From Candidatus Zixiibacteriota bacterium (GTDB lineage Bacteria > RBG-13-66-14 > B26-G2 > WVWN01), in the NCBI GenBank assembly GCA_030613505.1, contig JAUWLW010000036.1, forward strand, positions 1-29,731: DNA of 29,731 nucleotides. The letters are read 5' to 3'. Both the position numbers and the translations under genes were made by a program. The notes under the pieces are model-generated. The model saw only the letters and a list, made by a program, of their open reading frames with translations. It was not told the origin of the DNA and did not search any database. This document shows, in pieces, positions 20,684 through 24,050 of the stretch; the first letter of the stretch is position 1; each line of letters starts with the position of its first letter.

Positions 20684-20799
20684 CCTGGCGGCGTCCTACT
20701 CTCCCAGGGGGTCTCCCCCCAAGTACCATCGGCGCGAGCGGGCTTAGCTTCCGTATTCGGAATGGGAACGGGCGTTACCCCGCCGCCATGGCCACCAGG
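20684..20799 (-). rRNA. rrf: 5S ribosomal RNA
   Basis: A 116-base gene on the minus strand. The ends pair perfectly (CCTGGTGGC with GCCGCCAGG), and conserved inner segments are present: CCCATTCCGAATACGGAAG and GATGGTACTT. It lies 86 bases past the 23S 3' end and is cotranscribed with it. Two degraded fragments of the same sequence occur at 13090-13128 and 14801-14879. Confidence 0.96.
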
Positions 20800-20817
20800 A
20801 AATATTTCGTATATATG

Positions 20818-20841
20818 CTACATAGCGAACGTGAAAGGCAC
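20818..20841 (-). other. 3' arm of the 23S processing stem
   Basis: The spacer between 23S and 5S carries the complement of the leader segment at 23941-23960: CTACATAGCGAACGTGAAAGG here (plus strand) against CTACATAGTGAAGTGAAAGG in the leader (minus strand), nearly perfect. Together with the closing helix 20881-20893 / 23872-23884 this forms a long RNase III-type processing stalk. Confidence 0.7.
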
Positions 20842-20885
20842 GACGGCGACTAGATAGTCGCGGGGCGTATGAGTGCGACTGCTAT

Positions 20886-23879
20886 GGTCAAGACGAACGG
20901 CCTATTAGTACCGGTCAGCTTAACGCGTCGCCGCGCTTACACCTCCGGCCTATCAAACCGGTAGTCTTCCGGTGGCCTTCAGGGAGATCTTATCTTGAGC
21001 GAGGCTTCGCACTTAGATGCTTTCAGCGCTTATCCCGGCCGAACTTAGCTACCCGGCTATGCCGCTGGCGCGACAACCGGATCACCATAGGTTCGTCCAC
21101 CCCGGTCCTTGCGTACTGGGGGCAGCTTCTCTCAAATCTCCTACGCCCACGGCGGATAGGGACCGAACTGTCTCACGACGTTCTAAACCCAGCTCACGTG
21201 CCGCTTTAATTGGCGAACAGACAAACCCTTGGGACCTTCTCCAGCCCCAGGATGCGACGAGCCGACATCGAGGTGCCAAACCGTACCGTCGCTGTGGACG
21301 CTCGGGTACGATCAGCCTGTTATCCCCGGGGTAGCTTTTATCCGATGAGTTACGGCCCTTCCATTCGGGACCGTAAGATCACTAAGCCCTGCTTTCGCAA
21401 CTGCTCGAGCTGTAGCTCTCGCAGTAAAGCCCCCTTGTGCCTTTACACTCGACGCGCGATTTCCAAACGCGCTGAGGGGACCTTTGGGCGCCTCCGTTAC
21501 TCTTTAGGAGGCGGCCGCCCCAGCCAAACTACCCGCCTGACGTTGTCCCCCGACCGGATTCACGGCCGAAGGTTAGGACCTCATTATGACAAGGGTGGTA
21601 TTCCAAGGACGGCTCCACGCGAGCTGACGCCCGCGCTTCACAGCCTCCCACCTATCCTAGACAGACCAGAACGAAATCCAGCGCCAGGGTGCAGTAAAGC
21701 TCCCGGGGTCTTTCCGTCCCGCCGCGGGTAACCCGCATCTTCACGGGTACTACAATTTCACCGAGTCCCCTGTTGAGACAGCGCCCAAGTCGTTACGCCA
21801 TTCGTGCGGGTCGGAACTTACCCGACAAGGAATTTCGCTACCTTAGGACCGTTATAGTTACGGCCGCCGTTTACTGGGGCTTCAGATCAGCGCTTCGCTC
21901 CCCGAAGGGAGCTAACGCCTCACCTTAACCTTCCAGCACCGGGCAGGCGTCAGACCCTATACATCGCCTTACGGCTTAGCAGAGTCCTGTGTTTTTAGTA
22001 AACAGTCGCTTGGGCCGATTATCTGCGACTCCCTAAGGCTCGACAAGCAAGTCGTCTCACCTCAAGGAGCACCCCTTCTTCCGAAGTTACGGGGTCATTT
22101 TGCCGAGTTCCTTAACAGGGGTTCTCTCGAGCGCCTTGGTATGCTCTACCTGCCTACCTGTGTCGGTTTGCGGTACGGTCGCCCGACGGTATACTTAGAG
22201 GGTTTTCTCGTCAGCGTGGGATCAGCCACTTCGATTCCAAACGATCTCGGCATCACCCCTCGGGGTGGCTTGAAAGCCGGTCCCGCGGATTTACCTACGG
22301 GACCCCCCTACGGGTTTGCACCGGGACGTCCAACACCCGGATGGCCTACCCTCCTGCGTCACCCCATCGCGCCCATCGAGCGGTACGGGAATGTTGACCC
22401 GTTGCCCATCACCTACGCCTTTCGGCCTCGGCTTAGGGGCCGACTAACCCTGAGCGGAGTAGCCTTCCTCAGGAAACCTTAGGCTTACGGCGAAAGGGTT
22501 TCTCACCCTTATTATCGTTTACTCATGCCGGCATCTTCACTTCGGCGCGGTCCAACACACCTCGCAGTGTGCCTTCGTTCCGGCCGAACGCTCCCCTACC
22601 ACCACGCCTCCGAAGAGGCCATGGTCCGCGATTTCGGCGGTTGGCTTGAGCCCCGCTACATTGTCGGCGCGAGAAAACTCGACCGGTGAGCTGTTACGCA
22701 CTCTTTCAAGGATGGCTGCCTCTAAGCCAACCTCCCGGTTGTCTGAGCGTTCTCACATCCTTTCCCACTTAGCCAACACTTAGGGGCCTTAATCGGCGGT
22801 CTGGGCTGTTTCCCTTTCGACCATGGAGCTTATCCCCCACAGTCTGACTCCCCGGGTGGTGGCGGACGGTATTCGGAGTTTATCTGGGTTTGGTACGGCA
22901 AGCCGCCCTAGCCCAACCAGTGCTCTACCCCCGTCCGTTAACCCCGGAGGCTAGCCCTAAAGCTATTTCGGGGAGAACCAGCTATCTCCGGGCTCGATTG
23001 GCGTTTCACCTCTACCCACAGCTCATCCCCCCAGTTTTCAACCTAGGTGGGTTCGGGCCTCCACGCGCTTTTACGCGCGCTTCACCCTGGCCATAGGTAG
23101 CTCGCCCGGTTTCGGGTCTACCGCCTGCGACTAACGCCCTATTAAGACTCGCTTTCGCTGCGCCTCCGGCCTCTTGGCCTTAAGCTAGCGCCGCAGACGA
23201 GTAACTCGCCGGCTCATTATGCAAAAGGCACGCAGTCACCCCCGAAGGGGCTCCTACACCTTGTAAGCGTACGGTTTCAGGTACTATTTCACTCCCCGCA
23301 CAGGGGTACTTTTCACCTTTCCCTCACGGTACTAGTTCACTATCGGTCGTCAGCGAGTATTTAGCCTTAGGAGATGGTCCTCCCGAATTCGGACAAGGTT
23401 TCACGGGCCCCGTCCTACTTGGGTGCCCGGACCAGGAAGTCTCGCCGCCTTCGCCTACAGGGCTTTTACCTTCTATGGCTCAGATTTCCATAAGCTTCGG
23501 CTAGCAACGAGATTTCTTACTTCCCGAGGGTTCACGCCGAACCCTCCGTCCGGGTCCCACGACCCCGCGCACGACAACGGCGGCGGCCTTTAACGCCGCG
23601 CACGGTTTAGGCTCTTCCCTTTTCGCTCGCCGCTACTAGGGGAATCGTAGTTACTTTCTCTTCCTGCGGTTACTGAGATGGTTCAGTTCACCGCGTTTGC
23701 CGCGACGCCCTATGTATTCAGGCGCCGCTGACCGGGTATGACCCCGGCCGGGTTGCCCCATTCGGATATCCCCGGATCACTGCCTGCTTAGCGACTCCCC
23801 GGGGCTTTTCGCAGCCGGCCACGTCCTTCTTCGCCTGCTGACGCCAAGGCATCCACCGTACGCCCTTAGTATCTTGACC
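20886..23879 (-). rRNA. rrl: 23S ribosomal RNA
   Basis: About 2994 bases on the minus strand from GGTCAAGATACTAAGGGCGT to the CTTGACC that pairs with the 5' end. Universal segments are recognisable, for example GGAACTCGGCAAAATGACCC (as the complement near 22100). The flanks GCTATGGTCAAGA and TCTTGACCATAGC form a perfect 13-base-pair closing helix. The length is normal and no intron or inserted reading frame is evident. No 16S gene precedes it in the window. Several open frames inside are spurious. Confidence 0.97.
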
Positions 23880-23913
23880 ATAGCATGCTTGTGGTCAAGT
23901 AAAAGGGTTACCC

Positions 23914-23935
23914 GCGACTATCGTAAAATAGTCGC
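23914..23935. other. Leader hairpin upstream of 23S
   Basis: GCGACTAT-CGTAAA-ATAGTCGC, a perfect 8-base-pair stem in the transcribed leader. A related palindrome (GCGACTAGATAGTCGC) sits in the spacer after 23S, so the two can also pair with each other as part of the processing stalk. Confidence 0.6.
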
Positions 23936-23940
23936 CGTGG

Positions 23941-23980
23941 CCTTTCACTTCACTATGTAGTTTTCAAAGAGCGCAACATA
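23941..23980 (-). promoter_or_regulatory. boxA-like antitermination leader and 5' arm of the processing stem
   Basis: On the minus strand GCTCTTTGAAAACTACATAG contains a boxA-like GCTCTTTGAAAA, as found in rRNA leaders and 16S-23S spacers. It runs directly into the 5' arm of the stem that pairs with 20818-20841. Confidence 0.6.
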
Positions 23981-24021
23981 AGCCCGCGAGCCGACGCGTC
24001 GGCCGACCCCGAGCCGCTGGA

Positions 24022-24050
24022 AATATAACATAGGGATTCAGGGAAGTCAA
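24022..24050 (-). promoter_or_regulatory. Promoter of the 23S-5S operon
   Basis: On the minus strand TTGACT (24050-24045), a 17-base spacer and TATATT (24027-24022). The predicted start near 24015 leaves a leader of about 135 bases before 23S. This is among the best promoters in the window and lies where a linked operon would carry 16S. Confidence 0.8.

Follow-up and report, generated by a model that had tools for sequence, protein, structure and literature searches.

The 23S and 5S rRNA genes in the DNA stretch analysed here (29,731 nucleotides, called the window below) are preceded by restriction genes where a linked rRNA operon would carry its 16S gene. The question is whether they form a transcription unit of their own, with the 16S gene elsewhere, or whether a linked operon was broken during assembly or is absent from it. 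The unlinked arrangement is almost certainly genuine: the sequence argues for an autonomous 23S–5S unit with its own promoter, a boxA-like leader and a processing stem, and for a second unit formed by the 16S gene.

Organization of the 23S–5S locus

The window is the whole contig C41 of a 100-contig metagenome assembly, G000, from an uncultured member of Coatesbacteria; it comprises 2,860,374 bases (2.86 Mb) and is 93% complete and 0.8% contaminated. The features of the locus are as follows.

20683–20799, minus strand: 5S rRNA gene (Rfam 5S, 110 bits; full length)
20818–20864, minus strand: 3′ arm of the 23S processing stem, in the 23S–5S spacer, complementary to the 5′ arm
20884–23879, minus strand: 23S rRNA gene (Rfam LSU_rRNA_bacteria, 2838 bits, model positions 1–2925; full length)
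23911–23960, minus strand: 5′ arm of the 23S processing stem, complementary to the 3′ arm
about 23961–23975, minus strand: boxA-like element TGCGCTCTTTGAAAA in the leader (CTTTGA(A/C)A in the leaders of relatives)
24022–24050, minus strand: putative promoter TTGACT-17-TATATT with an extended −10 (TATGTTATA), supported by conservation and by a twin at the 16S gene
24314–28725, minus strand: upstream neighbours, outside the rRNA unit, in the position of the 16S gene of a linked operon
24314–25675, minus strand: 453-aa protein without a family match
25684–28725, minus strand: type IIG restriction-methyltransferase, 1013 aa (PDLC03604, 709 bits, near-whole-length match)

The preliminary description of a 23S–5S operon devoid of a 16S gene is borne out: both genes are of full length, the 5852 bp (5.85 kb) of contig upstream of the 23S gene are 16S-free, and Rfam and tRNA scans found neither a 16S nor a tRNA gene in the window. 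The restriction–modification gene placed upstream of the 23S promoter was likewise recovered, as the type IIG restriction-methyltransferase, while the adjoining 453-aa frame matched no family. The interval separating the 23S promoter from the restriction genes holds two additional partial copies of the type IIG 3′ terminus (24111–24157, 24262–24308, 25696–25742), which suggests that restriction genes were lost or shuffled there.

Downstream of the rRNA unit lie two ParE-type toxin genes (13129–13404 and 15510–15785) and, 5.9 kb from the 5S gene and on the same (minus) strand, a 77-nt 5S fragment (14800–14876). It is 94% identical to the 5S gene of G000 and has the bases of the 5S of the same-genus genome G003 at the three positions at which that gene departs from it. 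Similarly, G003 has a 40-nt piece of the 3′ part of 5S, including a terminator, after a frame for a HicA-like toxin (assigned by eye); insertions may be favoured at the 3′ end of 5S. A tail like PTSLGRVKALFR, reminiscent of a sorting tag, is shared at the end of many secreted or beta-propeller proteins predicted in these genomes and was found at 13 ORF ends among 2777 scanned (window 13905–14576 and 29466–29520; L106 8467; L052 7072; L062 5558 and 7136; L096 2615; L064 3925); no NCBIfam model covered it in the proteins tried.

The 16S rRNA gene and linkage in the genome

A genome search for 16S genes and their downstream flanks, proposed as a check in the preliminary description, gave a single 16S gene (C62:18475–20037, minus strand), located mid-contig on a 51-kb contig; it has a leader of its own and is not followed by a 23S gene. 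The contig continues for 18.4 kb on the 3′ side of 16S, and no 23S or other rRNA gene was found in the 13-kb stretch around it rescanned with Rfam (about 5.5 kb of it on the 3′ side). The window holds the only 23S gene and the only full 5S gene of this 93%-complete assembly. In genome_contigs, an exact 41-nt 23S pattern had no match.

According to the rule of Brewer et al. (2020), as described in PMC7761764 and PMC8178347, rRNA genes are unlinked when the 16S and 23S genes lie more than 1500 bp apart. Since the sole 16S gene sits mid-contig on C62 and the sole 23S gene on C41, the rRNA genes of G000 are unlinked, no 23S gene being present within 1500 bp after the 16S gene. Within the assembly at its 93% completeness no linked copy exists either, that is, the genome is exclusively unlinked.

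In G000 and G001, the stretch directly 3′ of the 16S gene, which contains a terminator-like hairpin, recurs between genes in the vicinity of that locus (L051 4383–4476 and 5280–5373; L056 5817–5910). Within the gene, the primer site reads CCTA(C/T)GGGAGGC-GCAG in this phylum (e.g. L001, L007, L029); one A of GGAGGCAGCAG is absent from all eight aligned 16S sequences of the phylum, the other phyla shown having it. Owing to this one-base deletion the common 341F/338R primers may fail, and the phylum may be hidden from short 16S surveys.

Conservation among relatives

The relatives were assigned to Candidatus Coatesbacteria by 16S-signature matches, which comprised three Coatesbacteria records and one labelled Zixiibacteriota. 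Absence of 16S from long flanks refers to a whole-genome search that scored the top five candidates in each genome, with a full rescan of the nearer flanks; the same method recovered linked operons with gaps of ca. 0.4–0.5 kb in the controls G015 and G020. A flank of the 16S or 23S gene exceeding 1.5 kb and free of the partner gene was found in G001, G002, G003, G005, G007, G009, G011, G012, and G013, so that every relative with enough flank is unlinked. G007 has a complete 16S gene on a 95-kb contig (C73) and a complete 23S gene with 23.8 kb of 16S-free sequence upstream (C39), in G005 180 kb upstream of the 23S gene contain no 16S gene, and in G001 and G009 a mid-contig 16S gene has no 23S gene after it. 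In G004, a single gapped scaffold, the 16S gene lies at 1.83 Mb and the 3′ end of 23S with the 5S gene at 31 kb, which places them ca. 0.8 Mb apart if the scaffold is circular.

In G003, with 1.58 kb of contig upstream of its 23S gene, the region corresponding to positions 20650–24115 of the window is 92% identical, and the homology stops ca. 65 nt above the −35 hexamer. Above the 23S promoter, G003 and G002 carry genes for secreted beta-propeller-like proteins instead of the restriction system of the window.

Putative promoters and leaders of the two units

The sequence TTGACT-17-TATATT, noted previously upstream of the 23S gene, is present at 24050–24022 (minus strand), with a TG preceding the −10 hexamer. 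The distance from the −10 to the 23S gene is 142 nt, which fits the leader of ca. 135 bases described earlier, and the boxA-like TGCGCTCTTTGAAAA lies within it; the order from 5′ to 3′ is promoter, GC-rich stretch, boxA-like element, and 23S. The hexamers alone prove nothing, because 1.5 matches to a bare consensus promoter are expected by chance (from shuffles) in the 2.7-kb stretch in which one was found. Support for a promoter comes instead from its conservation, the leader and promoter being common to G003 and G002, and from its twin: the 16S gene is preceded by TTGACA-17-TATATA, and the surrounding sequence, CCTATGTTATA, is that of the 23S promoter too. The same layout precedes the 16S genes of G001 and G003. 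A chance match was thus rejected on conservation and not on the consensus score. A scan of the 2.86-Mb genome with CTTGAC-N(9-13)-CTATGTTATA gave only two matches, C41:24024–24051 (23S) and C62:20201–20228 (16S); as the pattern was built from these two sites, its informative part is the absence of further matches. Of the 16S and 23S leaders read, which come from four families, nearly all contain the motif CTTTGA(A/C)A. The preliminary description held that the dedicated promoter "shows" the unit to be built to run alone; conservation and the 16S twin favour this view, but "shows" is too strong a word for a promoter whose activity is inferred.

Predicted processing stem and RNase III

The flanks of the 23S gene are complementary and form a self-contained stem around it in both genomes compared, the duplex amounting to −81 kcal/mol in G000 (vs −49 ± 5.4 in dinucleotide shuffles, z −5.9) and −97 kcal/mol in G003 (z −6.2). 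The flanking stem of the 16S unit is weakly above chance (z −1.6). RNase III is encoded in G000 at C52:10188–10835, and its gene is found in 11 of the 14 genomes and in all nine genomes of the phylum passing the quality cut, G000 included.

In ordinary operons the balance of rRNAs is kept by co-transcription. With separate units, the near-identical extended −10 promoters would provide matched transcription from corresponding start sites, and the boxA elements would recruit antitermination factors to each unit. The stem would be cut by RNase III to release pre-23S RNA. Promoter matching may in this way replace co-transcription in keeping the 16S/23S balance, giving an equal output of both units.

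Assembly fault or additional copy

An assembly break at a repeated rRNA operon, put forward earlier as the main alternative, would make the contig a chimera in which a linked 16S–23S operon had been severed. The genome is indeed a metagenome assembly, and the contigs of relatives often break inside rRNA genes, but in G000 both the 16S and the 23S gene are complete and mid-contig, and G007 likewise has the two complete genes on separate contigs. Moreover, the 23S genes of G003 and G002 are preceded by the same leader and promoter, the two flanks of the 23S gene in the window pair with each other, and the sequence upstream is contiguous for 5.85 kb. Because of this conservation within the genus, the pairing of the 23S flanks, the complete mid-contig genes, and the recurrence of the arrangement in relatives, a break is very unlikely, and the chimera was rejected.

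Even less credible is the explanation that the window carries a degenerate or extra 23S–5S copy while the main linked operon is absent from the assembly. Metagenome assemblies often lack multi-copy operons, this one is 93% complete, and the 5S fragment at 14800–14876 testifies to at least one past duplication of 5S. Against it, the 23S gene scores 2838 bits across the whole model and is the sole one found, as is the 16S gene, which is complete, has its own leader and no 23S gene after it; the relatives share the arrangement. This explanation was also rejected, leaving two separate rRNA units as by far the most probable reading.

tRNA genes and the origin of the unlinked state

The usual tRNAs of the 16S–23S spacer are tRNA-Ile and tRNA-Ala. 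In three genomes of family f5 (G007, G011, and G013), tRNA-Ile(GAT) and then tRNA-Ala(TGC) lie upstream of the 23S gene, 1.5–1.8 kb from each other, and no 16S gene is found upstream of them; in G007 and G011 a gene for a membrane protein of ca. 410–450 aa is situated between the two. Of the two tRNAs, G009 and G012 show tRNA-Ala. In G000 both tRNA genes are located on C62, 14–17 kb from the 16S gene and away from 23S. No homologue of the f5 membrane protein was found between them, and a shared ancestry of the G000 and f5 pairs is therefore not proposed.

The f5 tRNA pair ahead of 23S is likely a relic of a linked operon. The arrangement would descend from an ordinary 16S-Ile-Ala-23S-5S operon, the link to 16S having been lost no later than in the common ancestor. 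The full scenario, comprising ancestral loss of linkage throughout Coatesbacteria, the spacer-tRNA relic in f5, and balance in the genus of the window by matched promoters unique in the genome, seems to us reasonably probable.

Relation to known systems and significance

The earlier statement that separate 16S and 23S genes were already known agrees with Brewer et al. (2020), who, as described in PMC7761764 and PMC8178347, found unlinked rRNA genes to be widespread in bacteria and archaea. The genes of G000 resemble those, as far as they are described there, in the 16S–23S distance above 1500 bp, low copy number and separate units. They differ in the retention of RNase III, unlinked genomes being reported to have fewer RNase III genes (Brewer et al. 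2020, per PMC7761764); this trend, which is not a defining feature, was not significant in the analysis of PMC7761764 itself and is not seen in the phylum set. The division into a 23S–5S unit and a 16S unit is like that of Wolbachia pipientis (Bensaadi-Merchermek 1995, per PMC7761764), but Wolbachia is host-associated, while G000, with its 2.9 Mb, belongs to a different phylum. In Helicobacter pylori, according to the account of Iost (2019) in PMC7761764, there are separate 16S and 23S–5S precursors, as would be the case in G000, RNase III is implicated in rRNA maturation, and regulation by an antisense RNA has been reported. The open-access literature searched, exclusive of the taxon list of Brewer et al. 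(2020), gave no publication in which Coatesbacteria are connected with either unlinked rRNA genes or an rRNA operon.

Split rRNA genes being known, what is new is the lineage, the matched promoters and the tRNA relic. A poorly known candidate phylum is added that appears to have split rRNA genes as a rule, and its twin promoters and boxA-like leaders are a clear example, at the level of sequence, of a way in which separate units could be kept in balance. The f5 arrangement preserves a likely intermediate of operon break-up. Surveys based on 16S-ITS-23S amplicons will miss these organisms.
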